A stretch of DNA of 64,000 nt. Origin: Theocolax elegans. Its lineage: Eukaryota; Arthropoda; Insecta; Hymenoptera; Cerocephalidae. This document shows positions 27,330-64,000 of the stretch, one piece after another. Position 1 is the first letter of the stretch, and every line of letters begins with the position of its first letter. The translations under genes and the position numbers were made by a program. The stretch lies in assembly GCA_026168455.1 (NCBI GenBank), contig CM047430.1, positions 8,142,007 through 8,206,006 on the forward strand. The letters run 5' to 3'. The notes below the pieces were generated by a model. The model saw only the letters and a list, made by a program, of their open reading frames with translations, was not told where the DNA came from and ran no database searches.

Positions 27330-27331
27330 TA

Positions 27332-28403: not shown

Positions 28404-28427
28404 TTTGTGATAAGGTCGTTCCGCGTT

Positions 28428-29700: not shown

Positions 29701-29707
29701 CGTCGAC

Positions 29708-29742: not shown

Positions 29743-29780
29743 ATTTTTTAAAACTACAGCTAAAATAGAATTTTGGCAAA

Positions 29781-42393: not shown

Positions 42394-45300
42394 CTAAGAC
42401 GCCATACTGCCAACACGACGTCCACCGGCGAAGGTCGATGAGTGCGCAGAAAACCCGTGCGAAAATTTTGCAGCCGTTGGAAGCACTGCGAGACTGGACT
42501 TGAGCGATGAGTTGTCCTTCCCTCTCGACTCTAACCTCCAAAAAGATGAACGAATATAATGCGAAATAGCGGGATACATACTTGGCAAAACAAACTGGAT
42601 CAGCATCTAAACAAACAGATACCAATTGAGGAGCTGGATCCAAGAACACGCCGAGCGCGGCGAATGGATAGAGGAGGCGGAGAGAAATTAAGAAATTGAC
42701 GTCATCGTGACCAAATTTTTTAATTTGCCGAATTTAATTTAAAAAAATACTGTTGTATGCAGAATTAAAAGACGCAACTTTTTCTATTTAATGTTTTCTG
42801 TACGATGTGCAGATCAGATGAAAAAAATTAAGAATATAAAGATAAATAAAGATATTTTATAGCATCAAAAGCAGTTATTATTTAAACCATTTTATGATGT
42901 AGTTGGATACAATATTACAATGCGATTTCAATAAATAACAAAGACGGCCACTGATTTATGCCGCGAAGCAGATGACCATTACGGCGGCGAAGTCGATGTT
43001 CATTTGTTTACAATTTTTCCTGCGTTAACTTGCGAATGTGTGTACTTTTTATTCAGTGTCACTTTTTTCAGTACATTCACAAATACACTTTCACAGTTTT
43101 ATAATATATAGTTTTTATAATAGAACTCGAACACGAAATTATATTTTTATGTAGGCGTTAAGGTTCTTTCGCGTCGAAAGCAAGATTTGAACTAACTACG
43201 ATCTCCATTTTTTCCTAGCAAATTAACTTTTTCTATGACAACCCCACTCTTACTTTTTTTTTTGTAAATTTCTAGACACAACGAAAAACCTCAAAGACGT
43301 TTAGAAAAATCTTTCGAAAAACGTTACCTACGATTGATTGAAAAAGAAGGAAACATAAATTTTTTGCGTTTCGCGTTACTTTACCAACGTCTTACAAATT
43401 TTCAATAATTGGCAGAATTTTACGATCAGGGTTTTCTTTTGAAATTTGTACGAACAAAAATTTTCTTTCGAGGCATCGTCGTCTTTTGCCTTATGCATTT
43501 TCGTTCAAAACAAGTATCTTTACGCGTTTTCCTTCTCTTCTAAAATGTGTAAAAGAACCTCTTTCTTAATACATGTGACTTTGAAGTTACTTGTACAAAC
43601 CCGTAACCCTCTAAATAGACCCCCTCCTATTTTACGAGCGACCTTTGCGCGGGACCGGCCAGGGTTTAAAAGGGACACACCGTTCACCCTGAATGCAGTA
43701 TTACAGCATCTTTTCTGTAAACTAGTTTTCCTATAATCGGTAAACTCGTCGAGACCTGTGCGACATAAAGTATTACAAAGATGACTCAAGCATTGTTAGA
43801 AACTGATTTTATTTTTACCGAAGACGAAACCTTCAAACAAATGGATAGTGAGAAAAAAGTGTCTGTGAATTTAGAAGATAAAAGACATACGCTGCATCGA
43901 AATTTACTCGAACTTCGTACTCGCTAAATAAATCGGCTACAAAAATAATAAATGTCAGTGTACAAGTTTTTCATAATCAAAAAATGTAACCCGTTATTCA
44001 ATTGTTAAATCAAACTCACTCGACAGGACTAGTAATCGATTCGGATACTTGGGTAGAACTACAAAATAAACTCGACGAAATATCAGAATATTTTAATAAC
44101 GACAATGACTTATCTTATAAAAGTCGAACAAGAATCTACATTAACGATTTGGAAATAATTTTTGCTACTTCGTATGGAGGAAAATCTATTATTTTGAATA
44201 AAACGTCAAAATTATCCAACGGAAACGAAACAGAAAAGAAGAGAAAATGTTTTCAACCAGCTATAGTTATGCAAAATCAACTTTCGAAGGACTAAAGGAT
44301 AGTATTTTTTGTGTAGAAGAACGATATCGTTGACTCGAACGCTATATCAACGATATTGAAAAATGTAAAAATTTTATTTGCGATATTGTGAAAGAAAAAG
44401 TTACCGATTATAATTTAAATTCACGCGAAGGACGAAATTTCTTTAAAAGTTTTGTGATCGGTAATTATGACATAAAATTGAGAGTAAAAGATCGATTTAA
44501 TTACGAAGAGTCTAAATTTTCTTAGAATATTACTTTGATATTGTATACTTGGAGTTAACATGCTTTCATTCTAATTATATTTGTGATGAAATAATACATA
44601 TGTATTACAATGTATAATATATTGCCTGTAATATCTCGTAAAATATTTAAATAAATCGGCACTTACCTCGTACATAATTTTGTATTTCGTATTTACTTAC
44701 CTAACATTTTTCCTTCCTGCTACAACATGAAAATAAAAGAAAATCTTCTCACGCGGTTATTCTATTTTCTTAAATACGCTCACCGTACGATAATTTATTG
44801 CTTCTCTTTCGTACTAACCGCAATACTTACTTTACCTATGAAGATAAATAGTTTCCCGGTAAACCAAAATCCTCCGGTCACCCTCGCCTCTATTGTCTGC
44901 ACACCTGCACTTTTGGGTATACGACCTTTTCTCACGACGAGTCGACTTTTAACCTTTTTGAATACACCTACGACATTTATATTTTATAAAATAAGCTTAC
45001 GTTCAAATTTTATTTCATTTCCGTTTGATTATTCAAACACGATGGGTCCAAAAGTTCAGATCGAGTTCCTCTCATCGATAAAAATCCAATACTAAGGATA
45101 ACAGTAATCATCATTCAATGTCGTCGCAATGGAAAAAATATACGGAAAAAGTTTCAATAAATAATAAATCATTGCCACAGAAAGACGGTTACAAAAATTG
45201 TAAATTTATATTTAATAAATAATAATAAACGGCCCTTTTTAGGGCCACCAATAATAAACGTAAATAACATATTCGTTCAATATCTAAAATTGTCACCTAT

Positions 45301-45930: not shown

Positions 45931-48852
45931 TCAGAGATCAGGCAAGGGAGGGCTCTCCAATCCCTCATTAACCATCCTTAATTCCCACGCCTGCCGATCG
46001 AGCTCAGCAAGGTGCAGTGCCAAAGCGGACTTGAAGGAAGGGAAAAGGAGTGGATCAAAGTTAGTAAAAGGTAAAGAGTTAATGAGGCGAGAGGCAGTAA
46101 TCTGGTAGGAATTGTTAAGGGCTTCTGTTCTAGGAGGTAGGTAGAAAAGGGACGAGGGAGGTAGACGAGATGAAGAACGGGATGGAAAGGAGGAATCACG
46201 TAGGACAAAATGGCTAGCGATGTAGGATGGGGAACTATGGGAAATGATGTTGTAGGCACTGCAGCCGATGAATAGAGATCTTCTAAGCCCGACCGACAAC
46301 CAACCTAACTTAAGGCGGTAAGGCGTTACGTGCTCTCTCCATGGGATGTTTCCCCACACGAATCGAACACACGCGTTTAAAAGTCTGTGTAATTTCAGAT
46401 TCAAAGTGGCATCAAGGTCGTGGTAGACTGCGCACGCGTAGTCAAAGTGTGGGAAAACAAGCGCTTCTACTAGGTGTTTTCTGTTTTGGCGCGAGAGAGC
46501 ACGTTTAAAAAATCTTAAGGAGTGTAGGACACCGTGGACCCGCTGCGATATCGACGCGACCTGGCGAGACCAATCCAGGGTAGGGGAAATCCATACACCC
46601 AACGATTTGACTTCCGTAGAGTAATCGAGGAAGCAGTTTCCTATTTTAATTTTAGGGGCCGAATCCAGGTTAATGCGCGAGATAAAAGCCTGACTCCCCA
46701 AGATCATCACTTTCGTTTTGTTTACATTTAAATTTAAGCCATTTGATCTCGCCCAACCATCTACCGCGTTTGCATCTTCTGTAATTCTCTGAACACCTTG
46801 GGCGAGATCAGCGGGGAAAAACGAGTGATAGATCTGGGTGTCATCTGCAAAAACCATATGATTTGAGTGTTTTAAGATCCCCGGCAAGTCGTTTATAAAG
46901 ATGGAGAATAAAAGTGGTCCCAAAACACTTCCTTGCGGAACTCCCCTGGACGTGTCAAGCCAAGCCGAACACGTACCTAGATCGTCCACCACCGCCTGGG
47001 AACGGCCCACTAGGTAGTGGAAAAACCAGGTCATGACCGCGTCGGAACAACCCAAAGAACGCAATTTGTATAGTAGGATGTCGTGCGGAACCGAATCGAA
47101 TGCCTTGGAAAAGTCGAACAGGATGAGGACTGTGATCATGCGCTTATCAATAGCACGCCTAACATCATCAAGAACACCAAGTAAAGCCGTCTGCGTACTG
47201 TGCCCCCGGCGAAAGCCCGCTTGTCTCTCCATAATTAGGTTATTTTTATTTAAGTAATCTAAAAGCTGGTCATGTACGATTTTCTCGAGAATCTTGGAGA
47301 TTTCGCAGAGCTTAGCGATGGGCTTAGTGTCAGACGGCGAGATCACCCTGGTCGACTTGGCTAATGGAAAGAGAAGAGATCTAGTCCAAGGCTTCGGAAA
47401 GGTTCCGGTTGCTAGAGATAAATTGAATAGTTCAGCAAGAAGAGGTGCGATCTTGGGAGCCAAGCACTTTAGCATGGGCACGGAAATTCCATCAAAGCCT
47501 ATGGCCTTAGATGAGGCCCTGGATATGGTAGAGAGGACCCTAAAAGGAGAGATAGGAACGAAGTGGAAGGAAGTTTCGGGATAAGAGGAGGGTAAAACAC
47601 TTGGTGATGAGATGAGAGACTGAAGATGGTTATGAGTGAAACGAGAAGGTGAGTACGAAATGGCTGCATAATGGGTGTTAAGTTGATCCAATGAAAACAT
47701 GGTAAGAGGTGACCGAGATGGTTTAGTCACTAGACCCATGTTCCTGAGCTCCTTCCACAGACCAGCTGTATTTGATGAAGAAGTAATTTTGTTGTTAAGG
47801 TGTAGATATTTACTAGAATCAATTGAATTTTTAACTAGTCTGCGGAGATCCTTATAAATGTGGTAGTCTGAGCTCAGGCCCGTGGCTACGTACCTCTTAT
47901 AAGCCATATTACGAGCTTTGATGTTGAGTCTTATACAAGGTGTGATCCAGGGTTTAAAGGAGTTTCTAATGGACGTGAGTCTAGATGGTGCAAGAGAGTC
48001 GAAAGTGTGCAAAATCGATGAGACGAGAGTGGAAAGGAGATTGTTGATAGGAATAGGTGACGGAGAGGGCGACGATAAGGTAGAAGGAGAGGAGGAGAAA
48101 GAGAGAGAGCGGCCAGGCTGAGTAGGTGCTAGATGGGATGCAGATGAAGAAGACGAAATAGTAGAGGTGGTGAAATGCGATGAAGCACGATCATAAGCGA
48201 CCGAGAAGATCGCAGCAGCCTCCGACAGGTTGGCCTGGGCAAAATTGCGCGACCAAATCTTTTTAGAAACCGGTAACGGTTTAGCAAAATCCAGCTGAAG
48301 GACAATATGGTCGTGCCCCGCTGCGAAGGGCACAGCTGATTTAAAATAATTAAAACTTGGCGGAGGGTTGCGTACGATAAACAGGTCAAGCCATGTATGT
48401 GTCGAGGTGTTAGAAGTATGAGTGTGATGAGTAGGGTCTGATTTGATCAGGAAAAGGTTTAGTGAGTCGAGGTATGACTCCAACATGGCGGACGACCCAT
48501 CTTTCTTACACATATTAATATTAAAATCTCCGGTGATGACAACTTGATCACAAGTGTGTAAGAAATTCGCCACTGAATCAAAGAATTTTGATGGGTAGGC
48601 CGCAGAGGGCCTTCTATAAACTACACAAAAGAGAAGCGAGCTAGTTGAACTAAGAATTTGAAAAATCATGTACTCCGGAGAATTAGAATAAACAGGGTCA
48701 GAGTGAGCTACAAGCCTAACATTGAGATTACTCTTGATGTAGGCTGCAACACCCCCCCCCCTCCTTTCTCGGAATCTCGGTAGCCAGTCCCTGCACCGAA
48801 GACTCGATGCGTGAAACCGAACTCTCGAGCTTCGATTCCAACCGGTCCGCAA
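45931..48852 (-). CDS. CR1-like LINE ORF2, endonuclease and reverse transcriptase
   Basis: 973 codons without a stop. Residues about 30-240 are an apurinic-type endonuclease (GGGVAAYIKSNL, VITGDFNIN, THTWLDLFIV, GHDHIVLQLDF). RT follows: PIAKLCEISKILEKIV, QAGFRRGHSTQTALL, LFDFSKAFDSVPHD, RGVPQGSVLGPLLF, FADDTQIYHSF (catalytic Asp pair), NVNKTKVMILG, SLGVWISPTLDW; then a CR1/Jockey-type C-terminal region. The first 30 residues are out-of-frame ORF1 sequence: the true endonuclease N-terminus, with its first catalytic residues, is absent, joined at a G/C run. The open frame is therefore long but encodes an incomplete endonuclease. It would need help in trans. Confidence 0.85.
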   Translation of the reverse strand: MRTGWNRSSRVRFHASSLRCRDWLPRFRERRGGGVAAYIKSNLNVRLVAHSDPVYSNSPEYMIFQILSSTSSLLFCVVYRRPSAAYPSKFFDSVANFLHTCDQVVITGDFNINMCKKDGSSAMLESYLDSLNLFLIKSDPTHHTHTSNTSTHTWLDLFIVRNPPPSFNYFKSAVPFAAGHDHIVLQLDFAKPLPVSKKIWSRNFAQANLSEAAAIFSVAYDRASSHFTTSTISSSSSASHLAPTQPGRSLSFSSSPSTLSSPSPSPIPINNLLSTLVSSILHTFDSLAPSRLTSIRNSFKPWITPCIRLNIKARNMAYKRYVATGLSSDYHIYKDLRRLVKNSIDSSKYLHLNNKITSSSNTAGLWKELRNMGLVTKPSRSPLTMFSLDQLNTHYAAISYSPSRFTHNHLQSLISSPSVLPSSYPETSFHFVPISPFRVLSTISRASSKAIGFDGISVPMLKCLAPKIAPLLAELFNLSLATGTFPKPWTRSLLFPLAKSTRVISPSDTKPIAKLCEISKILEKIVHDQLLDYLNKNNLIMERQAGFRRGHSTQTALLGVLDDVRRAIDKRMITVLILFDFSKAFDSVPHDILLYKLRSLGCSDAVMTWFFHYLVGRSQAVVDDLGTCSAWLDTSRGVPQGSVLGPLLFSIFINDLPGILKHSNHMVFADDTQIYHSFFPADLAQGVQRITEDANAVDGWARSNGLNLNVNKTKVMILGSQAFISRINLDSAPKIKIGNCFLDYSTEVKSLGVWISPTLDWSRQVASISQRVHGVLHSLRFFKRALSRQNRKHLVEALVFPHFDYACAVYHDLDATLNLKLHRLLNACVRFVWGNIPWREHVTPYRLKLGWLSVGLRRSLFIGCSAYNIISHSSPSYIASHFVLRDSSFPSRSSSRLPPSSLFYLPPRTEALNNSYQITASRLINSLPFTNFDPLLFPSFKSALALHLAELDRQAWELRMVNEGLESPPLPDL

Positions 48853-49255
48853 ACTCGGTAAACAGAGCGGCCATATCTACGGCGCCGGTCGCTCGCACGG
48901 GTAGGCCGGCGCAGCTCTCGGTGGGCGCGGCGCCGCGAGGTTGCTTGGCAACCTGCGACGTTGATGGCGACGGGGGCGAGGCTATACGCTTAGCACTGGA
49001 GGGAGACGGAGTGGGCGTGGCCGCGAGCTCGGTAGCGCAGATCTCTCTCGATTGTCGCGGCAACCGAGGCGGTGGCGCCCTCGCATCAGTGGGAGCCGCG
49101 ATTAGTGCTGTAGCTTGCGCTAACGCGCAACAGCGGCGCTCAGAAGAGCCCGGCGCGACCTCGAAGCAGTGCGCGTGCGTTGTTTTATTACAAGTTTGGC
49201 AGACCTCTGTATAATCCTTCCTCGTGAGCCTCCCTCCACAAACATAGCAGCTGCG
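48728..49255 (-). CDS. LINE ORF1 with PHD-like zinc finger, copy 2
   Basis: Same as 41845-42393. It differs at the C-terminus because the C run at about 48,752 has a different length, so it ends after EGGGCCSLHQE. The overlap with the ORF2 frame here follows from the deletion described for ORF2. Confidence 0.55.
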   Translation of the reverse strand, partial: RSCYVCGGRLTRKDYTEVCQTCNKTTHAHCFEVAPGSSERRCCALAQATALIAAPTDARAPPPRLPRQSREICATELAATPTPSPSSAKRIASPPSPSTSQVAKQPRGAAPTESCAGLPVRATGAVDMAALFTEFADRLESKLESSVSRIESSVQGLATEIPRKEGGGCCSLHQE

Positions 49256-49883
49256 CTAAGACGCCATACTGCCAACACGACGTCCACCGGCGAAGGTCGA
49301 TGAGTGCGCAGAAAACCCGTGCGAAAATTTTGCAGCCGTTGGAAGCACTGCGAGACTGGACTTGAGCGATGAGTTGTCCTTCCCTCTCGACTCTAACCTC
49401 CAAAAAGATGAACGAATATAATGCGAAATAGCGGGATACATACTTGGCAAAACAAACTGGATCAGCATCTAAACAAACAGATACCAATTGAGGAGCTGGA
49501 TCCAAGAACACGCCGAGCGCGGCGAATGGATAGAGGAGGCGGAGAGAAATTAAGAAATTGACGTCATCGTGACCAAATTTTTTAATTTGCCGAATTTAAT
49601 TTAAAAAAATACTGTTGTATGCAGAATTAAAAGACGCAACTTTTTTCTATTTAATGTTTTTCTGTACGATGTGCAGATCAGATGAAAAAAATTAAGAATA
49701 TAAAGATAAATAAAGATATTTTATAGCATCAAAAAGCAGTTATTATTTAAACCATTTTTATGATGTAGTTGGATACAATATTACAATGCGATTTTCAATA
49801 AATAACAAAGACGGCCACTGATTTATGCCGCGAAGCAGATGACCATTACGGCGGCGAAGTCGATGTTCATTTGTTTACAATTT

Positions 49884-50833: not shown

Positions 50834-52256
50834 TTATCCGTACTTATCCCCGTGATCTTCGGATAAGTACGGTTTGAGATACTGTACGTGACATTTCTCT
50901 TCATTACCTCGGGCATCTTGTATCTTGACGGTGTTTGGGCCGTAGCTATAAACTACCAGGTATGGGCCAACGTATTTCGGGGATAACTTGGCCGAAATAC
51001 CTTGAGCACTGGATGAAAGGACTCGATTATTCTTCCACACTAGGTTTCCAACTTCAAAAGATGCAGCCCTTCGCCCGGCATTGTAACCGGCTTGTCTTTC
51101 ATGAGCTTTACTCGCATTGGCCGATGCTTTCTTATAAAGCTCAGGTAATCTTGACAGCCGATCACTCCACTCAAGCAAACGTTGGTATTCCACACGTTGT
51201 TGAACCAGCTCGTCTTGCGCTCTACGAGCTGTACCGGGTGGCTCGGGTTGCCGGCCATAGTTTAACATGGCCAGGCTCCATCCTGTCGAGCTTTGTATCG
51301 CTGTATTTAGAGCGAATACTAAGTCGGGGAGTTTCTCATCCCATGTGTTGTGCTTTTCTGTGATATAGGACGCGATCATTGTCTTCAACGTCCTATTAGC
51401 ACGTTCAACAGGATTAGCCTGAGCATGGTAAGGAGGAATCGTCGTATGGAAAATCCCTCGTTCCACTAGGTAGTCATCCACGAGTTTATTTTTAAACTCA
51501 GTTCCGTTGTCGGACAGAAACACCTCTGGGATAACATAACGTGTGATGACTCGCTCATGCAACTCTTTTACGATGGTCCTAGCATTAGCTTTCCGAATCG
51601 GGACCGCCTCGATCCAGCGCGTAAACAAATCCTGAAAGACCAAAATGTATTCGTAACCATGTGTCGACCGCGGAAGTGGGCCAGTGGCGTCACCTGCTAC
51701 AACTTGCCATGGTTTCTCTATCACGCGTCTACCCATCAAACCCATGGGTGGACGTTGCTCCACCTTACACTGTTGGCAGACCTGACATTTGCGTACATAT
51801 TCTCCGACTTCGGCGTAGTACCGCGGCCAATAATACATTTTAGCCACTCTAGCAAATGTCTTTTCCCTACCTAAGTGTCCAGCAGTCGGATCGTCATGAC
51901 ACTCCCGGAGTATGGCTTGCCTATGCTCCTCTGGTACAACCAGTTTCCAAGCGTCTTGATCCTCCATCACGTCGTCTAACTCGTTATCGACGCGATACGA
52001 ATACAAATTGTTACCTATTATCTTCCATTTCGGAAAATCTCTAGGTCGCTCTGTTACGTCTTTCAGCCATGAGAGGTGCCAAGGCTCGTCTTCCTCGTAC
52101 ATGCGAGAAAGTGCATCAGGAACATAATTTAGAGCTCCCTTCCTGTACTCAATTGTAAAATTATGAGACTGGAGTTCCAATGCCCATCTGGCGAGCCGAC
52201 TCGTTGGATTGTGTATATTGCACAACCAACGAAGACTACTATGATCAGTTATAACC
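50834..52256 (-). pseudogene. Outer Gypsy pol: RNase H end and integrase
   Basis: Minus strand. Starts with the end of RNase H (VITDHSSLRWL, then RKGALNYVPDALSR), followed by the integrase: an HHCC zinc finger (ECHDDPTAGHLG, CQVCQQCK) and a DDE core with Asp in VVAGDATGPL, Asp in FLSDNGTEF and Glu in NPVERANRTLK. The C-terminal part includes LSPKYVGPYLVV and KIQDARGNEEKC. The integrase reads through without a stop. The gene is pseudogenic because the younger Gypsy splits it within RNase H at 52256/63050. Confidence 0.9.
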
Positions 52257-53289
52257 TGTGACGGAAATCGTCACACAATCTATTCACGACGAATAGAGTA
52301 TTTAAATTGTCGAATTGTAAGTCGTCGGAGCCTTTCGTATGTCAAGGCCAACCGACGACATTTGTTTACGTCGATCAAATATACAATTACGCGCGCAATA
52401 GTACGTAGGGATGAGAGCGCGAGAGTGTGTGTGTGTTTCCCACTCTCATCCCTTTTTCGAAAATTAGGCGATTGCCTAATTAGTATGTCCCGATCCGCCG
52501 ATCGAGGCGGACAAACATCTTTCCGGTGCCGAATATAGTGTTTACGGCTAATAAGGCGCGTGAGGCGCAACAAAGCCATCGGTTACCCGGAACATCCTCG
52601 TGAGTGAGCCGCGAGTGACGTGGTGAGTGTGAGCAAGGACGGGAAGTGTTGTGTGAGTGCGGACGCGGTTCGCGAGGCACTCGCCGCGGCACAGGGCCGC
52701 CTTCCACCACCGCAGCCGACGTCGTCCTCCGTTGCCCAGGAGGACACAGGGACAAGGATCGGCTGGGCCATCCACGGGGCGCACCCCGGTAAGTCCTCTT
52801 GTATTACCGCGCGTTCCCCCCTTTCCCCGAGTGTATGTGTGTGAGTACATCGGGAGTGTATTCGGGTACGCCGGTACCCGAATAGCGGAGTTCAGGAAGG
52901 AGTCAACCGCAGGCGAGGATCTCGATCCGGTTGACTCCCGGACTTCCGCCCGCGCGAAAGAACATTGTCGCGGCACGAGGCCTGGATGGCCAATTGTTAA
53001 TTAAATACATTTAATAAATGTTTTATTCGATTTTATTTTAATTTATTGTGTTTCTTTTGTTCTCCCCGCTCCCGCCGACATCCTTTAATTAATATAAATC
53101 GCGTCGAGGCAAGGAGGATCGCCCGAATCCTCCATACCGTGCGTCCCAGCGAACTCGCGTTCCTGGCGACAGCCCGCAGTTCGACAAATTAAATAACTTG
53201 TGTGCGCGGTATTGGGCAACGCGGCCCAACGGTTAATATTAATTATATAAATTAATTAATTTAATCGGGTTCGCGAATACCACGTCACA
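52257..53289 (+). repeat. Gypsy 5' LTR
   Basis: 1,033 bp, same as 62017-63049. Open frames inside it (to 142 codons, both strands) recur in the other LTR and have no recognisable domain; I treat them as chance. Confidence 0.95.
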
Positions 53290-53291
53290 AA

Positions 53292-53309
53292 TGGCGACCG
53301 TGACAGGAC
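53292..53309 (+). promoter_or_regulatory. Primer-binding site, tRNA-Arg
   Basis: TGGCGACCGTGACAGGAC, two bases after the 5' LTR, is complementary to the 3' end (with CCA) of an animal tRNA-Arg ending GTCCTGTCACGGTCG. It primes minus-strand DNA synthesis. Confidence 0.85.
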
Positions 53310-54297
53310 GTTCGGTTTCGTCCTCACCGAATTTAAATTAAAGTGTATATTTGTCGGCCATATTTTCGCGCGCGAGCAGTGTCGCGGCGAAACGGAGCGG
53401 GTAAAGAGAGAGAGAGAGAGAGAGAGAGAGTGAGTTGTACGAGTTAGAGTGAGAGAGAGAGAGAGAGCGCGAGAGACGGCGTGTGAGACGCGTCTCTATA
53501 CCGGAGTATTCCCCCTCTTGCTCGGGTATCCGAGGAGAGGTATACACCGGTATATCGGGAGAGAGTTCGCGCGCGACCGTGTTTAGCCGGAAGCGCCCGA
53601 TCTCACCGAGATCGGTCTCTCTCGATCGCAAGCTTGACGGGAGAACTTTGCCTAGCTTGTATGGGAGCGGCAAAGTAGGGAGAGAGTAGCTTGCGCCGCG
53701 GATCGCGGGCAGCGAGAATCCCCCCCCGAATAGCGCAAAGGAGAGACTTCGCGAGAGCCGATCACCATCGGCTCTCTCCGATTGCGCCCGCGAGTGGGAG
53801 AGAGAGAGAGAATCCCTAGTCGCGGGGAATCGGAGTAAGGTGCTAGGCGGGCTATAGGTGTGTGAGTGAGAGAGATAGCGCGATCGCCTAGCCCCTTCGC
53901 GTGTATAAGTCTTCGCAGCTGGTTTCGCTGATAGAAACCACTGCGGCGAATTATTTTTATTCCGTTTAATAAAATAAATTCGTTCCCGCGCGGGATCTAA
54001 TTTATATTTTTTGTGTGAGAGTGTTTTAAAATTAGATCCTTTCGGGAGAGGTAGTTGCCCCACCCCCTCCCTTTTTAAAGAAAATTTTAAAACTATAAAA
54101 TTTGTTTTCTTTTTATACGGGACGCGGCGAAATTTTAATTGAAATTATTTTTGAGTTGAGAGCGAAAATTTTGTTGCTTTCTCCCCTCCCTGACATATAT
54201 GTAATTATAATTTAGTAATTGTATATATTATTTATTGCTATTTATATTTATGATATATGTTATATCATTTTATTTGTGTGTGAATAAAATATACTTT

Positions 54298-54431
54298 ACA
54301 ACTATTGTTAATTATTTAGATTTGTTTGCAAGTTAAATAATTAACATTAAGTAACTTTGTGTGAATCAGCCGCAAAGTTACAATAGTTGTAATATTAATT
54401 ATTTAAGCTCGTGTGTGAGTAAAATAATTAA
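54298..54431 (+). ncRNA. Structured leader unit A: three-way junction plus hairpin
   Basis: Outer stem ACAACTATTG (54298-54307) / CAATAGTTGT (54381-54390) encloses hairpin 1 (TTAATTATTTAG..TTAAATAATTAA, 54308-54344) and hairpin 2 (GTAACTTTG 54351-54359 / CAAAGTTAC 54373-54381, 13-nt loop tgtgaatcagccg). A third hairpin with GCTCG..GAG follows at about 54395-54431. All stems can be drawn from the sequence without forcing; biological role unknown. Confidence 0.6.
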
Positions 54432-54560
54432 AATTATTTCTTTATTACAATTATCTGACAGTAATTACTTGATCTAATATTTGGTATTTATTGAGTATTA
54501 CTGTTCACGATACTTGTAATATATTTTTGTAAATTTTTGAGTGTGAGAAAATTTTTTTTT

Positions 54561-54694
54561 ATAACTCGTGTTAATTGTTTAGACTTGTTGCAAGTTAAAC
54601 AATTAATGTTAAGTATCTTTGTGTGATTGTTCCGCAAAGATACGAGAGTTGTAAAATATAATTATTTAGACTCGAGAGTGAGTTAAATAATTGA
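54561..54694 (+). ncRNA. Structured leader unit B: same plan with compensatory changes
   Basis: Outer stem ATAACTC (54561-54567) / GAGTTGT (54646-54652), hairpin 1 (TTAATTGTTTAGACTTG 54571-54587 / CAAGTTAAACAATTAA 54591-54606), hairpin 2 (GTATCTTTG 54613-54621 / CAAAGATAC 54635-54643, 13-nt loop tgtgattgttccg), then a GACTC..GAGTT hairpin at about 54659-54694. Relative to unit A, T-A pairs replaced A-T in hairpin 2 and G-C replaced A-T in hairpin 1, always on both sides. Confidence 0.6.
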
Positions 54695-54832
54695 ATTTTT
54701 TTTGCATGTATTTTAATGATCGGCATTTAACCTAATATTTCGTATTCGTTATTTGCTGTGAAATTTTAATATATGTTAAAACCTTTCTTTTCTCTTTTTG
54801 TGTGTTTAAATTATATCTCCACACATTTTTAC

Positions 54833-55920
54833 CAATTATTTAGACTTGTTTGTTAGTTAAATAATTGGTTATAATTTTTTTTTGGTGTGTTTGAGTAAAA
54901 TTATTCGGTGTATAAATTTAATTGTTTAGACTTGTTAGCAAGTTAAATAATTAAATTTTCATTTCCTTTTCGTTCAATTTAATTAAAAAAGGAAATATAA
55001 ATTATTTCAACTTGGTAGCAACATAAATTATTTATTTAGTCCTTCTTAGGATAAAATAAATATATTTCGCTAAAAAATTGTCGTTTGGGACGACAATTAG
55101 TGAAATAATTATTTTGTTGCAAACCTACCGTTGAAATAATTTAATTAAATTTGTGTTTGTTGTGTAGTGTAAATTATAAAGGAAATTTTTTTTTTTTTTG
55201 TTGTTGTGAGCTTGGAAAAGCAAAATAATAAATAGTGTCTTGGTGTGTGTGAATCACAAGACACTGTATTTATTTTTATATTTATTTTAAATTTAATTAT
55301 TTAGGCTCGTTAGTGAGATAAATAATTTAATTTTTTTCTTTGTCTTTTCTTCCTTTATAATTTGTTGTTCTGTATTTATTAATAGATTGAAACTTTAATT
55401 ATTTCATTTTCCATAACAAAATAAATTCTTTTCGCCAGTGAGGAATCTTTTGGATTATAACTGGTGAGAGAGATATTTTGGGAAATCGTTAAATTTACCA
55501 TTACTGGTAAATTACCGACGATATTGAAATAATTTAAGGATTTCTTTTTGTTAATAATTAATTATTTTTGCTTGCAGAAGCAATTGTATAGAGTCTTGGT
55601 GCGTGTGAGTCACAAGACACTATTATAAACATTAATTATTTAGACTTGTGAGCAAGTTAAATAATTAATTTTAATTTGGTGCAAGTGTTAAGTGTGTGAT
55701 TTGCCACAACTTTAACCAACAAAATTTAATTATTTTGTCCTTCTAAGGACGAAATAAATTCCTTTTAAAGAAAATCTTTTGGATTTTAATTAAGTGAATT
55801 AATTTTGTTGGTACACTAGTCGGTGCATTTTTACAATTTATTGTAATTAAGCCGACACCAAAGTTTTTTTTTTACTCGTTGGGAGTAATAATTATTTTAT
55901 TGTGGTGAGTCCAATAAAAT
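54833..55920 (+). repeat. Further hairpins of the leader array
   Basis: Hairpins of the same family at about 54833-54869 (CCAATTATTTAGACTTG..AGTTAAATAATTGG), 54918-54953, 54990-55030, 55293-55328 (GGCTCG..GTGAG), 55630-55666 and 55723-55757 (GTCCTT..AAGGAC). In addition, two AGTGTCTTG / CAAGACACT-type hairpins with GTGTGTGAATCA-like loops lie at 55234-55265 and about 55592-55620. Arms pair in each although sequences differ. Confidence 0.6.
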
Positions 55921-56041
55921 AATTTCCAATTGAAAATTGGATACTTCCGAAGTATTTGAAACACTAGGGATTTCATCTGAAATCCCGGTTGAGAGTACTT
56001 CTCCCGACGTAACACGTCGGCTGCTGCTGGTCAAAAAAATA

Positions 56042-58729
56042 ATGGCCAGCAGCTATGAAGCCCGAATGGCCCAGCTTATGCGTGAATCACGCATAGCTAG
56101 GGATATTCGTCGGGAAACGAAGAAGCTTCCGATTGAGGCAGTGTATGCCCAGTTGGAGCATCTGAGTTTAAACGCAAATGGCGAAGAGGCGGAGTGCCGC
56201 GAACGCCTTTTGCGTCACCGGATAAGATGTGTAGACATTAATCTGGAAATACCATGGTTCCCTGAATACGATGAGAATGTAAGGGCAGAGCCTGCACATA
56301 AACCTCTAGTATGTCAGGAACTGTGGGAAATTAGGAAACCTCGTTCCAGGAAAGGGAGTGTGGTCCCATCAGGAACGGAAGTTTCCTGCGAGTCCGAAAT
56401 GTCGGATCGCGAAAGGGTTGCTAGTGACAGAGCACCTATCCCTGAAGAAGATGGAGCTCTGTCACCAAGTGGTCTGTCTAGAAACTCGCCAATGAGTACT
56501 GCACAGAGCCCGAGGTTGGCATCAACAGGTGCTATACCTAAACGGTTTGGTGAGGTACTGGCAGCTAACATGACCACGACTGCAATCCCTTATGTTCCTG
56601 TTTCGGTGGCTGCAACCTCGTGCACAACCACTACGTCGACGGTTACGACCGTGACGACTGCTCAACTCGGAGGTTTTTATGCACCCGCACATTACCTCCC
56701 AATTGAAGAGCAGAGAAACAGTGGACATCTTGGCACTAGAGAGAGTGAAGTGCCAACACAACATTTTGACTTGGGTTCGCAGACGGAAGCCGACCGTCGT
56801 ACGTCACGAGGATACACCTCTAGACAATACGACAACAGGCAACCTGAAGCTAATACAACCGAACGTCAATTTGTTGATGATAGGAATGGATATGACCTTC
56901 CTAATGACGTCAGTGTTCAATCTTACGAAAAACCGAGATTTGAACAGAGACGTCGTGAGACCTCTTCTAAGACTTGTGAAGGACAAGATAGAAGAGAGAG
57001 GCGTGAGTACACGACTCCAAACAGAAATTCACGACACCATCGTTCTGTGAGTAGAGCCTCAAGCAACGATGAACGTCGTGAAAGCTGTACGGAGAGACGT
57101 ACTCATAAACGTCAGTCCAACCGTAAACTCGACGACCGAGCACAGACGGAAATTCCGGAGCAAGGTCACAAAGAGAGGTCGGACAGACGTAGAGAAACGC
57201 CTCGAGAGAAACGTGCGGTGGCCACTTGCGATCAGTGCACTCAGACGGATTCGTCCGATGGGTATCAGTCTGATCGCGAACCTGCTCGTAGGAGATCCGA
57301 TTCTCGTAGGGCGGCTGAAGGCCGACAAGAGAATAGGAATCCTTCTACCAGCAGGCGTAGGAGTTCCCGGACGGATAATAGAGACGACCGTCGAGAAAGA
57401 GAGTCCTACGAAGCCAGGCCAAGGTATCGTGAAGACGATAACCGAACGCACGAACGGACAGGGTGCGCACGAGAGCTGCGTATCTGGAACATGTCCTTTG
57501 ATGGTGAGACCAAAAAGGACGCGGAAGAATTTCTGAACCGTTTGCACGACTTCAGAAATGACAACGAGTTCTCAGATCGCAGGATGTTCAGTGCCCTGCC
57601 CAATGTGTTCTCAAAATCAGCACTGTTCTGGTATAGAACAGTTCAGCCATCTCTTCGAGATTGGCGTGATTTTGAGATCGAGTTCCTAAATGAGTATGGC
57701 CGTATAATAAATGACGAAGATTTACTCATGGAACTTCGATCAAGAACACAAAATGAGGGAGAAAAGGCTACGACGTTCTTGAACTGTTTCAGAGCGATCG
57801 TAAATAAGTTTAAAAGCCCTCCCTCATTAGAACAACAGGTGAAGATGGCCTACTCGCAGATGAGGCCAGATTACCGTAGGTACATACCAGTACGTCAAAT
57901 CAGGAATTTCTCTGATTTGACAAGCTACGGTAAAGAGTACGAGCAGCATTTAACATGGGACACGAAATTTTCCAGTTCCAACGTTAAGCGCGAGAAGCTC
58001 GTACCAGAAGCTTTCCCGAAACAGAGTGGTGGAGCACGAGTTTCGGGCAAAGTGGCGACTGTTACCGAAAAGAGTAAGGATGAGTCTTCTCATGCGGATA
58101 AACAGTCGTCGAAGAAAACTATTAAGAAGAAGAGCAAGAAAAGTGCGAAAAACTCGCCAAACTCTTCTTCAAGCGAATACGAAGCAGCCGCTGTCTACGG
58201 TACTTCCAACGTCGCTAATAGTTTTCAGAAACGATACGGCAAATCGAATAACGGAGTGAGTGCCTCCAATTCGAAATCCTTATCGTATGTGCCTGTTTCT
58301 CAACAGTCACCTGGGTAACAAAAACAGAGCTCGGGCAAAAGAGAAAGACGTGTTTTGACGAATTCTCAACTGCCCCAGCAAAACGTTTTTGTCCCACAAA
58401 TGGCACAAAACCTGGTGAGGTATGTGCAACCACAGGCGACGGCAGTAAATCCAACGAACCTGAGTACCAACTTTGTCGGCGTGTGTTTCACATGCCAAAA
58501 AGTCGGTCATAGGTCGTCGGATTGCCCGAGCCGAACATGCTACCGATGCGGAAACATTGGGCACTCCGCTGAGCAGTGCTCTACCGAATTGGTAGCAAAG
58601 GAGTGCCAGCTGTGTGGAACTAGTGGCGTTACACTCCAAACATGTCCTAACTGCGTCAGATTCCTCCAAAACGTGGGAAACCTGAACGCAGGGCACCCGA
58701 GCTGCCCCGGGCGCCCTGCACTGCAGTAA
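56042..58729 (+). CDS. gag: Gypsy Gag, with an in-frame TAA before nucleocapsid
   Basis: The frame opens at 55934, after a TGA, but its first ATG is 56042. Residues after the start include a SAP-like helix pair (AVYAQLEHLSLNANGEEAEC), then a very Arg-rich, low-complexity middle (about 56,700-57,450), then a Retrotrans_gag capsid domain (RIWNMSFDGETKKDAEEFLN, ALFWYRTVQPSLRDW, MAYSQMRPDYRRYIPVRQ). A TAA at 58316-58318 interrupts, and the same frame runs on to 58729 with two CCHC knuckles (CFTCQKVGHRSSDC, CYRCGNIGHSAEQC) and a third Cys cluster. The TAA could be a nonsense change or a readthrough site. Gag packages the RNA; the nucleocapsid would bind it. Confidence 0.85.
58675..58719 (+). promoter_or_regulatory. 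-1 ribosomal frameshift signal between gag and pol
   Basis: GGGAAAC at 58675-58681 is in the required phase (G GGA AAC in the gag frame). After a 6-base spacer, GCAGGGC (58688-58694) pairs perfectly with GCCCTGC (58713-58719), with CCCG/CGGG inside. Slipping by -1 enters the pol frame, which is open from here to 61602; gag would otherwise stop at 58727-58729. Confidence 0.85.
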
Positions 58730-61602
58730 GTAAACCGCATGGTTTACAAGGGCAAGAGTTTAAGGTTGGAGAACCCTCTAAACTCTTTAAGAAGTCTAGC
58801 AAATCATTTGCTGACTTCTCTAAAGTCCTTAACGGAGATCAAATTCCCTCTCAGACCGAAGTTGGTGTCGAAAGTAAGTCTGAGTGTAAGGATTCTAAAC
58901 GTTCTGGGGATTCGACAGATGGAAAAGTTCTTAGAACACAACCTGTCAATCCCACCCGAGCTTTGCAAGGTAAAACAGAACAAGGAACCTTATTAGACCA
59001 ACAAAAGCGTGAGGCTAAAGATTGGTCTAAGGAACTCCAAAGGCAAATATACTCTGATAGCAGAGATATTATTGGTGAAGAAAGCGTAAAGAGATCGTTA
59101 TCTCAGCCGCTTAGCACCATCGGAGTGAACGACCTTGGTTGTTGCTCATCGTCACCCCGTTGTGACACACCTAGTAATGAGGACAAGAAGCCCTTGGTGG
59201 AGAAGGAGATTGTCCTCAACAACGAGCCCTTGGTGGAGAAGGTAGTTGTCGATGGTGTGCATAACATGAACCGTACAAGCTCGTTGCCGAGAAGTACAGT
59301 TCAGGGGGGGGCAGATGCCGTACCAAGTACGTCTAAAATGACGCACACGGCATCGACTCCTAACGACGATAGTCAAACCGATCAGATAATTGCTGGAATC
59401 CAATCGGATAACCGGCTATTCTTTTTGGTACGACTCGGTGGAAAGGACTTTAAAGCACTTTTCGATCCTGGCGCCATGGTCTCTCTTGTACGATCAGATG
59501 TTGTCGAACAGTACAAGTTTAAATGGAGACCCGTCAAGGTTATCGTGAAAGGTGTGGCTGGACCAGCTCTTAAAGTTCTTGGCCTAATTGACATCCTATT
59601 CTGTGTAGAAGGCCTTGATGGCAATATCCAACTGAGAATTGTAGAGAATATTGAGCATTCCATCATTCTCGGTATGGATTTTCTACAACATTGGAATATG
59701 GAAGTCAAACTAGGCGAAGCTATTTGGCGTATTGGCGAGAGTGATTGGAGACACTTCGTCAGAGATACATCTCATGACATCGATTCGAGGATTTCCGCTG
59801 AATGTGCTGGTATAATTGAGATACAGGACGACCAGCGGAAACAAGTCAAAGAGTTAGTTGAAAGCCTACTCTTGCCCTCGGGAGACGTCCACGGCTTTAC
59901 GACGTTAACGGAGCACCACATAGAGGTTGATCCTGGTGCAAGACCGGTTCGTCATAAGCCAAGACGTATGTCTCCCAAGGTCCTCGAATTTGCCCAGAGC
60001 GAGGTCAAAAAGATGTTTGACAAGGGCATTATTGAACCGAGTGCGAGTGATTGGTCAGCTGCTCCGGTCATCGTCCGCAAGGACGAAGGAAGTTATCGCT
60101 TCTGTATCGATTTTCGAGACCTTAATGCAGTCACAAAACGTGATTCTTATCCAATTCCTAATATGGATACCATATTGGATAAGCTGCATAATGCAAGGTA
60201 TATATCGAAAATTGATCTTAAGAAAGCGTACTTCCAAATATTAATGGCCGAGGCGAGCCGGCATTATACTGCATTTGCTGTACCAGGGTCGGGGCTGTGG
60301 CAGTTCACGAGAATGCCTTTTGGCCTCATGAATGCTCCTATGACCTTTGCACGGCTTATAGATGCAATTTTCGGGCCTAAGGTGGAACCTCATGTGTTTG
60401 GTTATTTAGACGACTTGATCGTCATTACCGAAACTTTTGAGGACCATCTGAAATGGCTCGAATACGTACTAAGGACGTTGAATGACGCTGGACTCGAAGT
60501 GAATCGAGAGAAGTGTGAATTCTGTTGTTCCAGCGTAACGTTCCTTGGGTACAAATTGGACGCGGACGGCTTGAGGCCTGACGAGGAACGAGTCGCTCCA
60601 GTCCTTAATTACCCTACTCCTCGTAATGTCAAACAGCTGAGGTCCTTTCTCGGGATGGTAGGCTGGTACTCTCGATTCATTAATCGAGAAGCTGACATTA
60701 AAGCTCCCCTTACCAAGTTGCTGCGTAAAGACCAGGCTTGGGATTGGGGCGAGGAGCAGGAGGAGGCGTTTCGTCAGCTTAGAATTGCGTTAGCTGAAGC
60801 GCCTGTACTAGCCCGTCCAGACTTTTCTAAGCCATTTACCGTCCAAAGTGACGCTAGTGACTTAGCAATAGGTGCGGTGTTGACGCAACTGGACGACGAG
60901 GGTTTCGAGCATCCGATTGTCTACGTCAGCCGATTATTAAATCGCGCTGAACGTAATTACATGACAACGGAAAAAGAATGCTTGGCCCTCATATGGGCTA
61001 TTAAGAGATTGAGACCATATATTGAGGCCTATCGATTCACGGCTGTGACCGACCATAGTGCTCTCATATGGCTCAAAAATCTCAAGGAGCCGTCGGGTAG
61101 GTTGGCACGATGGATACTTGAAATGCAGCAATGGGACTTTGAAATAGTGCATAAGAAAGGAGCCTTGCACTATGTCCCGGACGCGCTTTCTCGTGCCATC
61201 AACCCAGACCCCGACGAAGAAGAGATTGCCTCGTTCGAAGTAATTACAGACCCATGGTATATTGCTAGATTAAACGATGTACGCTCATGCCCTCAAAGAT
61301 TTCCGGAGTGGAAAATTGAGGATGATATGCTATATCGTTTTACAAGTGATAAACTCTTGGACTCTGTAACAGAACGAGATGAAGGCTGGCGTCTTGTGCT
61401 ACCCTTAGAGCAGAGGAACCGAGTTCTAGTAGATTCTCATTTCCACCCAGCTATGGGTCATATGGGAATTGAAAAAACTTACGAACGCGTTGCAAGAGAC
61501 TATTATTGGCCAGGTATCTACCACGATACCCACCAATTGGTCTTACGGTGTCTGATATGTCAGAACTATAAGATGTCTCAAGCAGGTCCTCAAGGCTTAT
61601 GA
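58681..61602 (+). CDS. pol: Gypsy Pol: protease, RT, RNase H, integrase zinc finger
   Basis: Expressed by -1 frameshift from gag. Order: a linker of about 240 residues; aspartic protease (ALFDPGAMVSLV, with DPG in place of the usual DTG/DSG, and a flap-side HSIILGMDF); RT (FCIDFRDLNAVTKRDSYPIP, KIDLKKAYFQI, TRMPFGLMNAP, catalytic GYLDDLIVI); RNase H (TVQSDASDLAIGAVL, TTEKECLALIWAI, AVTDHSALIWL); and the integrase HHCC finger (HFHPAMGHMG..CLICQ). It ends at a TGA soon after the finger, because the integrase catalytic core is deleted. RT and RNase H look intact; the DPG protease box is unusual and may impair processing. Confidence 0.9.
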   Translation, partial: PERRAPELPRAPCTAVSKPHGLQGQEFKVGEPSKLFKKSSKSFADFSKVLNGDQIPSQTEVGVESKSECKDSKRSGDSTDGKVLRTQPVNPTRALQGKTEQGTLLDQQKREAKDWSKELQRQIYSDSRDIIGEESVKRSLSQPLSTIGVNDLGCCSSSPRCDTPSNEDKKPLVEKEIVLNNEPLVEKVVVDGVHNMNRTSSLPRSTVQGGADAVPSTSKMTHTASTPNDDSQTDQIIAGIQSDNRLFFLVRLGGKDFKALFDPGAMVSLVRSDVVEQYKFKWRPVKVIVKGVAGPALKVLGLIDILFCVEGLDGNIQLRIVENIEHSIILGMDFLQHWNMEVKLGEAIWRIGESDWRHFVRDTSHDIDSRISAECAGIIEIQDDQRKQVKELVESLLLPSGDVHGFTTLTEHHIEVDPGARPVRHKPRRMSPKVLEFAQSEVKKMFDKGIIEPSASDWSAAPVIVRKDEGSYRFCIDFRDLNAVTKRDSYPIPNMDTILDKLHNARYISKIDLKKAYFQILMAEASRHYTAFAVPGSGLWQFTRMPFGLMNAPMTFARLIDAIFGPKVEPHVFGYLDDLIVITETFEDHLKWLEYVLRTLNDAGLEVNREKCEFCCSSVTFLGYKLDADGLRPDEERVAPVLNYPTPRNVKQLRSFLGMVGWYSRFINREADIKAPLTKLLRKDQAWDWGEEQEEAFRQLRIALAEAPVLARPDFSKPFTVQSDASDLAIGAVLTQLDDEGFEHPIVYVSRLLNRAERNYMTTEKECLALIWAIKRLRPYIEAYRFTAVTDHSALIWLKNLKEPSGRLARWILEMQQWDFEIVHKKGALHYVPDALSRAINPDPDEEEIASFEVITDPWYIARLNDVRSCPQRFPEWKIEDDMLYRFTSDKLLDSVTERDEGWRLVLPLEQRNRVLVDSHFHPAMGHMGIEKTYERVARDYYWPGIYHDTHQLVLRCLICQNYKMSQAGPQGL

Positions 61603-61796: not shown

Positions 61797-61994
61797 AGCG
61801 GTAAGAAAAACGTATCGGCGTACCTGAGAACAGTCAGCGAAGGCTAGGCCTGGTGACTGTATGCCACGTCAATATCATCCGAAGCACGAAGAATCATCGA
61901 AGCAGCCTCCAATTGAAGAAAAGAAGAGAAGCGTACAGCGCGCAGTCGTGGATAGATTGTGCCTTTCTTTCGACTCGGCCTTCCCGAAGGAAGT

Positions 61995-62014
61995 GGAGTC
62001 TAGGGGGGGGGGGC
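61995..62014 (+). promoter_or_regulatory. Polypurine tract
   Basis: GTGGAGTCTAGGGGGGGGGG-type purine run ending three bases before the 3' LTR (62017). It primes plus-strand DNA synthesis. 61797-61994 has no gene. Confidence 0.8.
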
Positions 62015-62016
62015 TT

Positions 62017-63049
62017 TGTGACGGAAATCGTCACACAATCTATTCACGACGAATAGAGTATTTAAATTGTCGAATTGTAAGTCGTCGGAGCCTTTCGTAT
62101 GTCAAGGCCAACCGACGACATTTGTTTACGTCGATCAAATATACAATTACGCGCGCAATAGTACGTAGGGATGAGAGCGCGAGAGTGTGTGTGTGTTTCC
62201 CACTCTCATCCCTTTTTCGAAAATTAGGCGATTGCCTAATTAGTATGTCCCGATCCGCCGATCGAGGCGGACAAACATCTTTCCGGTGCCGAATATAGTG
62301 TTTACGGCTAATAAGGCGCGTGAGGCGCAACAAAGCCATCGGTTACCCGGAACATCCTCGTGAGTGAGCCGCGAGTGACGTGGTGAGTGTGAGCAAGGAC
62401 GGGAAGTGTTGTGTGAGTGCGGACGCGGTTCGCGAGGCACTCGCCGCGGCACAGGGCCGCCTTCCACCACCGCAGCCGACGTCGTCCTCCGTTGCCCAGG
62501 AGGACACAGGGACAAGGATCGGCTGGGCCATCCACGGGGCGCACCCCGGTAAGTCCTCTTGTATTACCGCGCGTTCCCCCCTTTCCCCGAGTGTATGTGT
62601 GTGAGTACATCGGGAGTGTATTCGGGTACGCCGGTACCCGAATAGCGGAGTTCAGGAAGGAGTCAACCGCAGGCGAGGATCTCGATCCGGTTGACTCCCG
62701 GACTTCCGCCCGCGCGAAAGAACATTGTCGCGGCACGAGGCCTGGATGGCCAATTGTTAATTAAATACATTTAATAAATGTTTTATTCGATTTTATTTTA
62801 ATTTATTGTGTTTCTTTTGTTCTCCCCGCTCCCGCCGACATCCTTTAATTAATATAAATCGCGTCGAGGCAAGGAGGATCGCCCGAATCCTCCATACCGT
62901 GCGTCCCAGCGAACTCGCGTTCCTGGCGACAGCCCGCAGTTCGACAAATTAAATAACTTGTGTGCGCGGTATTGGGCAACGCGGCCCAACGGTTAATATT
63001 AATTATATAAATTAATTAATTTAATCGGGTTCGCGAATACCACGTCACA
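62017..63049 (+). repeat. Gypsy 3' LTR
   Basis: 1,033 bp, equal in length to the 5' LTR; I noticed no difference on reading. Followed by AACC, the target duplication. Confidence 0.95.
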
Positions 63050-64000
63050 AACCTTAAACTGGTAACCCTCAATATACTGTCGAAATTTTCTAATTGCCCA
63101 TACTACGGCCAAGCATTCCCGTTCTGAGACGCTATAGTTGCGTTCTGCTGGCGAGAGTACTCTACTGGCAGACTCCAGGACTCTCTCGACTCCATCAACG
63201 ACCTGTGTTAATACTGCACCGATACCGCTGTCACTAGCGTCTGTTTGAATGGTATAATCGTCATTCTCATCGGGAGTCTGTAGAACGGGTGCAGTCATCA
63301 GCAGCGCTTCGAGTCGCTGAAATGCACCTTCTTGTTCTTGGAGCCATTCATACTTTTGGTCTTTCTTTGTAAGACGTGTTAAAGGCTCCGCTATCGTAGC
63401 ATAGTCGGGTATAAATCGTCTGTACCAAGATGCCATCCCGAGGAATCGTCTCAGCTGCTTGAGATTTCGGGGAGCCGGATATTCTTGAATCGGCTCCGTC
63501 TTAGCTGGATCAGGTCTTATCCCATCGCGATTGACCCGTACACCCTAGTATCTCACTTCGGGTTGACAGAAAACACATTTTTCTCGGTTTACCGATAAAC
63601 CGGCTTCAGTCAAACGAGTCAACACCTCCTTTAGCAACAGTTTGTGCTCTTCGAAGGTCTCCGTCACGACAATGATATCGTCGAGATAGGAGTAAGCATT
63701 CGGTTCGAGAGCAGGTCCAATCACCTGGTCTATCATACGTTGAAACGTCGCGCCAGCATTTGCCAACCCAAAGGGCATACGAGTAAACTGGAACAAACCC
63801 ATTCCATTATTTGGTGATAGGCGCAGTTCATATCTATCGTAGATATATATCGGGCTCTTTTGAGTTTGCGTAAAATATCCTGCATAAACGGCAAAGGATA
63901 CGCTTCAGGTTTGGTCAAAGCGTTGACCTTCCTGAAATCAATGCAAAAACGTCTTGCATTTTCGCCCTTCTTAGCCATCACCACTGGACTGGACCAACCG
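63050..64000 (-). pseudogene. Outer Gypsy pol: RT and RNase H, broken
   Basis: Minus strand, continuing off the right edge of the window. RT: FCIDFRKVNALTKPEAYPLP, STIDMNCAYHQI, then a deletion of about 40 bases with a frame change near 63,800, MGLFQFTRMPFGLANAGATF, catalytic YSYLDDIIVV, and an in-frame TAG at about 63545-63547. RNase H follows from MASWYRRFIPDY to IQTDASDSGIGAVLTQ, SERECLAVVWAIRKF and YQFKV, where the younger Gypsy interrupts; the gene resumes at 52256. About 75% of the catalytic motifs survive. A different lineage from the nested Gypsy. Confidence 0.88.

Follow-up and report, generated by a model that had tools for sequence, protein, structure and literature searches.

In a young Ty3/Gypsy-type LTR retrotransposon of Theocolax elegans, the leader forms the 5′ untranslated region of the genomic RNA. 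Folding predictions give it tandem hairpins plus five multibranch domains; its paired positions have changed together, and changes that break pairs are depleted among the alleles that two or more copies of the element share. We infer from this that selection acts on the plus-strand RNA, and selection on plus-strand RNA structure appears to us very probable. Our best explanation as a whole, held tentatively and somewhat short of even, is that the leader of the genomic RNA is structured as a multivalent packaging/dimerisation array read by Gag. Among LTR elements, leaders with RNA structure and leaders with many repeats are each known already. What is apparently new is a tandem array that keeps its pairing by two-sided changes, in an element whose coding RNA has more structure than its protein would demand. 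The scope is one genome, one family, related copies, and predicted folds.

The window, i.e., the whole 64,000-nucleotide stretch analyzed, holds the element between two LTRs that are 100% identical over 991 nt. The primer site, gag, and pol, with the order protease, reverse transcriptase, RNase H, and integrase, identify it as Ty3/Gypsy, where the integrase evidence is the zinc-binding domain only and the gag match lies below the Pfam cut-off. Its parts are as follows.

52301-53291, plus strand: 5′ LTR, minimum extent (same as 62061-63051, 100% over 991 nt; it may start earlier than 52301, as the alignment ran to the query start)
53292-53309, plus strand: primer binding site TGGCGACCGTGACAGGAC, directly 3′ of the LTR
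53310-54149, plus strand: GC-rich first part of the leader, by composition and folding
56042-58315, plus strand: gag open frame of the window copy (Retrotrans_gag 20.4 bits, under the cut-off of 24.1)
58319-58729, plus strand: zinc-knuckle frame, nucleocapsid-like (PF00098, E 1.7e-10, two stretches)
58651-61599, plus strand: pol open frame with protease, reverse transcriptase, RNase H, and integrase zinc domain (Pfam domains)
62061-63051, plus strand: 3′ LTR, identical to the 5′ LTR stretch

Since the primer binding site starts at 53292 and the gag ATG lies at 56042, the leader measures 2.75 kb, in agreement with the preliminary description, which had about 2.7 kb before gag. The primer binding site, which we take to be complementary to tRNA-Arg, has a sequence that also occurs at 221 genomic sites with another base next to it. 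With regard to an env gene, the mark of an endogenous retrovirus or errantivirus, the stretch between the pol frame and the 3′ LTR is only about 460 nt long and has one 156-codon frame (61828-62298). Minus-strand Gypsy-like frames flank the element (50834-52270 and 62999-63544, translations read by eye), an arrangement that suggests insertion within another Gypsy-like element. The family is large: there are 1454 first-look gag candidates, and all 150 that were scored are 98-100% identical to the query; for the leader, 868 first-look candidates were obtained and 40 scored. In a protein search with gag, 7999 candidates were scored and no relative emerged at E 0.001; therefore, the comparison is limited to one genome, with no other species.

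Several side observations concern the element and its surroundings. The GC-rich part of the leader carries a GA-rich simple repeat (53366-53492), and similar stretches lie upstream of gag at the loci L033, L035, L036, L040, and L045. In the gag region (55934-58318), the frame is open for 794 codons in the window copy, with the zinc knuckles in another frame; a 931-codon gag frame is present in about one third of the 150 listed copies, as counted by eye. Elsewhere in the window, on the minus strand, translations point to two closely similar LINE-type copies a few kb apart (39070-42733 and 45931-49595) and to a Polinton/Maverick-like cluster (21214-34838), named by reading translations, with frames for a protein-primed polymerase, an integrase, a packaging ATPase, and a capsid-like protein.

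The AT-rich array spans about 54.2-55.93 kb. Stem-loops with 9 or more contiguous bp number 26 between 54180 and 55930, against 9.2 in 60 dinucleotide shuffles (SD 2.3, maximum 15), and the stems comprise 292 pairs, against 91 in shuffles (maximum 144). The five predicted multibranch domains have z from −6.7 to −10. The features of the array and of the adjoining gag start are these.

54296-54392, plus strand: unit A three-way junction, with hairpin h1 at 54305-54347 (z −8.0 for 54296-54433; covariance model R2)
54392-54434, plus strand: hairpin h2, outside the outer stem of A (repeated family, covariance model)
54559-54654, plus strand: unit B three-way junction, with hairpin h3 at 54568-54609 (z −8.6 for 54559-54696; covariance model R2)
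54655-54697, plus strand: hairpin h4, outside the outer stem of B (repeated family, covariance model)
54829-54871, plus strand: hairpin h5 (repeated family, covariance model)
54915-54957, plus strand: hairpin h6 (repeated family, covariance model)
55003-55138, plus strand: multibranch domain, the most significant fold of the array (z −10.0, 0/200 shuffles)
55232-55267, plus strand: TGTGA-loop hairpin, a listed stem-loop
55290-55332, plus strand: hairpin h7 (repeated family, covariance model)
55393-55538, plus strand: multibranch domain (z −7.7)
55588-55621, plus strand: TGTGA-loop hairpin, paralogue of 55232-55265 (91%)
55629-55671, plus strand: hairpin h8 (repeated family, covariance model)
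55715-55812, plus strand: multibranch domain (z −6.7)
55890-55924, plus strand: final AT stem-loop of the array (55886-55932, z −2.8, 2/200 shuffles as good)
56020-56112, plus strand: two strong hairpins at the gag start, with the gag ATG (56042) atop the first stem (z −6.9)

Units A and B lie where the preliminary description placed them, and neither unit was equalled in folding by any of 200 shuffles. As tandem duplicates, they lie 263 nt apart and share 80% identity over 168 nt. The plan given for each unit, an outer stem enclosing hairpins, is right as far as it goes; a third hairpin per unit, outside the outer stem (h2 and h4), had gone unreported. Likewise, the 13-nt loop exists as read and becomes 9 nt once two inner pairs form. 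To the two three-way junctions, three further multibranch domains have to be added, making five in all. "At least eight related hairpins" following the units was an over-count, since the family has eight members in all, four in or beside A and B and four after them, and the other stems are of other types. The array had been ended at 55920; the structure goes on into gag, and it is raised through the element.

An Rfam search of 52300-56300 returned two matches (E 0.34 and 0.95), both far under the gathering scores. The more constant parts of the hairpin head are a mostly constant G before the upper stem and a short loop that is closed by G and ends in G. This more constant head looks like a recognition head, which would fit a protein ligand. 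As a separate observation, TGTGTGA occurs six times in the array (54276-55700) against 0.2 expected, several times in or beside hairpin loops; judging from the sequence, it is a possible protein-binding motif.

Covariation among the paralogues within the window is the stronger leg of the case for selection on pairing, and the results from the copies support it without being proof alone. The eight 43-nt hairpins align under one 19-pair structure. Of the cells in this alignment, 94.1% are paired (86.7% in shuffles), two-sided changes occur in 14 cells (5.2 in shuffles), and 7 pairs show a two-sided change (3.5 in shuffles); by each of these measures, 0/500 shuffles were as high. For the number of pair types, 5/500 shuffles were as high, and slid-structure controls gave two-sided changes in at most 2 cells. 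In the junction, 31 of the 39 pairs are constant between A and B, 3 have changed on both sides, 4 have a one-sided change that yields G-U, and 1 has lost its pairing; in other words, 7 of the 8 differing pairs are still paired. The paired changes quoted in the preliminary description are real, and the two-sided ones fall one per helix in three helices. Stem changes confined to one side, which it had named as evidence against its reading, are not what was found. For A and B alone, 58/500 shuffles did as well, the shuffle test on two sequences being weak, and a rough Poisson estimate for at least three compensated pairs is 0.004 (expectation about 0.3).

The array arose in part by duplication and divergence. 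Expansion of a simple palindromic microsatellite, the other contrary outcome foreseen, was rejected, because the units, 40-260 nt long, are complex and fall into several types.

G-U counts as a pair in RNA only. The mismatch-type cells of the eight hairpins comprise 11 G-U, of which 4 stem from one pair, no A-C, and 9 others, and A and B differ by 4 G-U against 0 A-C. Since a cruciform treats G-U and A-C alike, these counts favor plus-strand RNA. A-to-G editing could contribute to the G-U excess, and editing also needs folded RNA. It had been proposed that the array reflects selection for RNA or cruciform structure: selection is supported, by the covariation and the depletion of shared pair-breaking alleles, and the equal standing of the cruciform is not. 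The suggested insulator-like role is disfavored on the same G-U to A-C ratio. If protein bound the palindromes of an insulator or other chromatin element, in duplex or cruciform form, this would accommodate the excess structure seen on both strands, and insulators do sit in the tandem-repeat leaders of gypsy, ZAM, and Idefix (excerpts of PMC8872304). A cruciform or duplex site, however, would have no preference for G-U over A-C, and the depletion of ATG described below suggests that the leader is selected as RNA; hence, we regard a DNA-level array as very improbable.

The comparison among copies used partial leaders from 34 of 35 loci mapped to the window, 35 sequences in all; L016, of which only 295 nt mapped, was dropped, and L070 had no match. 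Five loci (L007, L016, L019, L021, and L023) were left out of one comparison for length. Stem and unpaired classes were taken from the local pairing probabilities of the window copy. Alleles were called shared when present in at least two copies and single when present in one; we read single alleles as mostly post-insertion decay and shared alleles as having passed through replication. Pair-breaking changes in stems are depleted among shared alleles (33 shared and 180 single; at unpaired sites, changes of these types number 73 and 176; p 5e-4), also at a pairing probability of 0.8 (17 and 114 against 73 and 176, p 3e-4). Changes that make G-U pairs are not rarer among shared alleles (40 and 61, against 41 and 75 for all unpaired transitions, p 0.57). 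Where the common state is a G-U pair, shared changes at probability 0.8 lead to Watson-Crick 10 times and to a broken pair 0 times, and single changes 6 and 6 times; at probability 0.5, the corresponding counts are 14 and 2 for shared and 17 and 12 for single changes.

The hairpin search of the copies (L016 not included; best 150 of 264 matches) gave 33 distinct rows with 48 two-sided cells, against 17.7 in shuffles (0/500). With model R2, the junction search (L019 not included; matches worse than E 1e-13 dropped) gave 63 full matches and 43 distinct rows with 67 two-sided cells, against 29.8 (0/500); both alignments were built with the structure as guide, from related rows. In the same fitted alignments, 31/500 (hairpin) and 19/500 (junction) shuffles had as many pairs with a two-sided change, and further pair types were at chance (268/500 and 367/500 as high). 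Junction alleles that keep or break pairing number 12 and 5 among shared alleles and 9 and 29 among single ones (p 0.002).

Over the whole array, two-sided changes among copies number 10 against 5.1 in shuffles (3/500 as high), with no excess over slid partners (5-12). With a pairing probability of 0.8, variable pairs have more paired cells than shuffles do (0/500); with 0.5 they do not (86/500). The odds ratio of kept versus broken pairs is 7.0 at probability 0.8, against 1.6-5.7 in slid controls, and 3.58 at 0.5, against about 1.3-3.6, where one slid value of 3.62 is slightly higher. The G-U to A-C ratio in shared alleles, 34:5 for 32 sequences and 38:11 for 35, is only suggestive, because slid pairs and unpaired sites shift likewise, and it is confounded, because the excess is mostly A>G, which RNA editing could cause. 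Raw transition counts at stem and unpaired sites are not relied on because base composition and single alleles also differ.

These data bear on the view that the array has no function, i.e., that tandem duplication, together with template switching by reverse transcriptase within hairpins, perfects palindromes and mimics covariation. A and B are indeed tandem duplicates, the whole-array two-sided changes stay within the slid controls, and hairpin number varies between copies (8 in the window, 9 in L018, of which one is weak, and 6 in L065), L018 having a repeated stretch. Repeat-rich leaders are also common, with 19 of 49 Drosophila LTR-element 5′-UTRs so described in the excerpted text of PMC8872304. 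Template correction, however, should yield perfect Watson-Crick stems, yet G-U is kept and A-C is absent, and 9 other mismatch cells remain. Nor does it account for pair-breaking changes being depleted among shared alleles where G-U-making ones are not, or for the much smaller excess of folding at other Gypsy-type loci (−1.5 to +0.6 at 16 loci; −1.3 to +1.3 in 24 frames). We therefore consider absence of function improbable. Independently of this question, leader and gag-start segments are repeated or rearranged in the copies L018, L019, L021, and L023; therefore, leader units and larger pieces duplicate.

Folding beyond dinucleotide shuffles extends over 52301-61600, i.e., through LTR, leader, gag, and pol. 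On the plus strand, mean z in 150-nt windows runs from −1.7 (LTR) to −3.3 (array), against −0.6 to +0.2 for the LINE, Polinton-like, and other parts of the window. The sixteen Gypsy-type loci of the preceding paragraph are non-members of the family and their values are likewise mean z; the members L065 and L054, the latter with a large insertion, had −2.5 and −1.0. When the coding frames were shuffled synonymously, keeping protein and codon usage (40 shuffles, 150-nt windows), mean z was −2.5 for gag (SEM 0.4) and −1.7 for pol (SEM 0.3), as expected of genome-scale ordered RNA structure. Control frames gave 0.0 and 0.3 (LINE), 0.05 and −1.0 (Polinton-like), and −0.7 (outer Gypsy-like). The further members L060 and L065 had −1.9 and −1.7; two similar GC-rich loci, L033 and L036, gave the lowest of the 24 values for frames from other loci.

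Matches to the hairpin model R1 were obtained in the window and in four of the five member loci, the fifth (L054) ending before its array, which is L069; at E 0.05, there was none in 35 other loci. The latter comprise 20 loci upstream of Retrotrans_gag matches (L029-L048; L032 partly N) and 15 following the same primer site (L049-L053, L055-L058, L062-L064, and L066-L068; Gypsy identity not checked for each). As several look like copies of one family, they stand for fewer than 35 independent families. By blastn, the 15 same-primer-site loci had no match to the leader at E 1e-5, and five of the 20 gag-upstream loci matched the GA-rich repeat. Two of these 20 matched the array weakly, which we ascribe to chance similarity of AT-rich sequence: L042 at E 2e-6 (63% over 214 nt) and L045 at E 6e-6 (72% over 85 nt). 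Within the loci sampled, the structure is thus a family-specific, element-wide RNA structure.

Such structure invites the boldest alternative, in which element-wide ordered RNA structure, with the array as its densest part, shields the transcript by short imperfect helices from piRNA/siRNA slicing or from sensors of long duplexes. It would be in keeping with gag and pol of this family exceeding synonymous shuffles where LINE and Polinton-like frames do not, with the same behavior of L060 and L065 relative to frames from other loci, and with the numerousness of the family (1454 first-look gag candidates, 150 scored). Comparable structure is described for persistent RNA viruses in excerpts of PMC3950689 and PMC3695492. 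Shielding does not account, however, for the eightfold repetition of one hairpin with a similar loop, and the matches listed for literature on piRNA target accessibility held no such title. We rate it as unlikely. The wider proposition, that this Gypsy lineage evolved genome-scale ordered RNA structure and a hairpin array in an AUG-purged leader, and that armor against small-RNA-guided silencing is partly why the family is numerous, is in our estimate rather unlikely.

The leader is purged of ATG. In 53292-56041, ATG occurs 8 times against 46.1 expected (z −7.5), the most depleted of the 64 trinucleotides; GAT follows with 29 against 59.5 (z −5.6), and the complement CAT has 16 against 24.5 (z −2.1). 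Both parts are affected, with 1 against 8.3 in 53292-54149 and 7 against 35.8 within the array, and the remaining upstream frames have at most 28 codons. An intron in the leader is disfavored, because the array is purged and an intron need not be. Internal initiation is found in Idefix-type leaders. The preliminary description had listed it among the possibilities, and it is disfavored here because the whole leader is depleted, whereas the part upstream of an IRES need not be.

The depletion could instead point to translational control, the array slowing or shunting scanning ribosomes, or binding host repressors through TGTGTGA, and so holding the RNA for packaging. Besides the rank of ATG among the trinucleotides, the excess of TGTGTGA in the array and the position of the gag AUG within a hairpin would suit such a role. 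ATG is also scarce, however, in the leaders of another family that has this primer site (observed/expected 10/23.6 in L050, 15/29.9 in L051, and 6/24.9 in L055), and L050, the only one whose folding was computed, is unstructured (mean z 0.2). Because its leader is depleted and yet unstructured, ATG purging and structure are separate traits, and the depletion does not need the array. Furthermore, changes that create an ATG show no significant shortage among shared alleles (6 shared and 29 single, against 185 and 463, p 0.18). As the purpose of the array, translational control seems to us decidedly unlikely.

Among the functions offered, packaging/dimerisation is the most likely candidate, and as the use of the structure it is a tentative choice, at a little under even. 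The prediction and covariation together provide the structured leader RNA expected of a packaging signal. The repeated hairpins would act as a multivalent array that the element's own Gag recognizes and binds through its zinc-knuckle domain; this binding would select full-length RNA for packaging and dimer formation, and repetition of the hairpin would raise avidity. On this proposal, the number of hairpin units would be free to change, because avidity, not exact count, matters. Ribosomes might reach the gag AUG by scanning or shunting through the AUG-poor leader. The structure of gag and pol could compact the same RNA, and element-wide folding may have a second, general role, e.g., compaction or protection from guided slicing. 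Against packaging stands the position of the array, 1 kb downstream of the primer binding site. A packaging array of 1.75 kb would also be unusual, since Ty3 nt 429 to 4979 are dispensable in cis according to excerpts of PMC4974528.

Our findings open the question of whether retrotransposon packaging can be multivalent, with the copy number of the signal as an evolving trait. They also raise the question of whether a retroelement can evade small-RNA silencing more readily when its RNA is structured at genome scale. Among the matches listed from the open-access literature, we found no covarying hairpin array in a Gypsy leader combined with folded coding RNA.

Retroviral psi elements consist of a few distinct stem-loops within a few hundred bases, whereas here eight copies of one hairpin and five multibranch domains extend over 1.7 kb. 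The likeness lies in a structured leader RNA, which in MMTV and FIV is read by Gag (PMC8096270 and PMC10726167, as excerpted) and which we presume to be so read here. In Drosophila, the LTR elements gypsy, ZAM, Idefix, Tirant, and accord have tandem-repeat 5′-UTRs of polymorphic organization, and the roles named for these repeats are at the DNA level, i.e., insulator, enhancer, silencer, and protein-DNA binding (excerpts of PMC8872304). The present leader resembles them in carrying repeats in a Gypsy-type leader; unlike those leaders as described there, it has paired positions that covary and belongs to an element with element-wide RNA folding. The genomic RNA of yeast Ty3, likewise of Ty3/Gypsy type, folds well in its core, carries palindromes for dimerisation at its 5′ end, and has further structure scattered through its coding sequence (PMC11381356, in part); structure in the coding part is common to both. 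Ty3 differs in its short 5′ cis region (PMC4974528, in part), in being A-rich, and in having no repeated hairpin array in the parts compared. Finally, persistent positive-strand RNA viruses show pervasive structure beyond sequence-order controls (PMC3950689 and PMC3695492, in part). The element is like them in genome-scale structure and differs as a chromosomal LTR retrotransposon.
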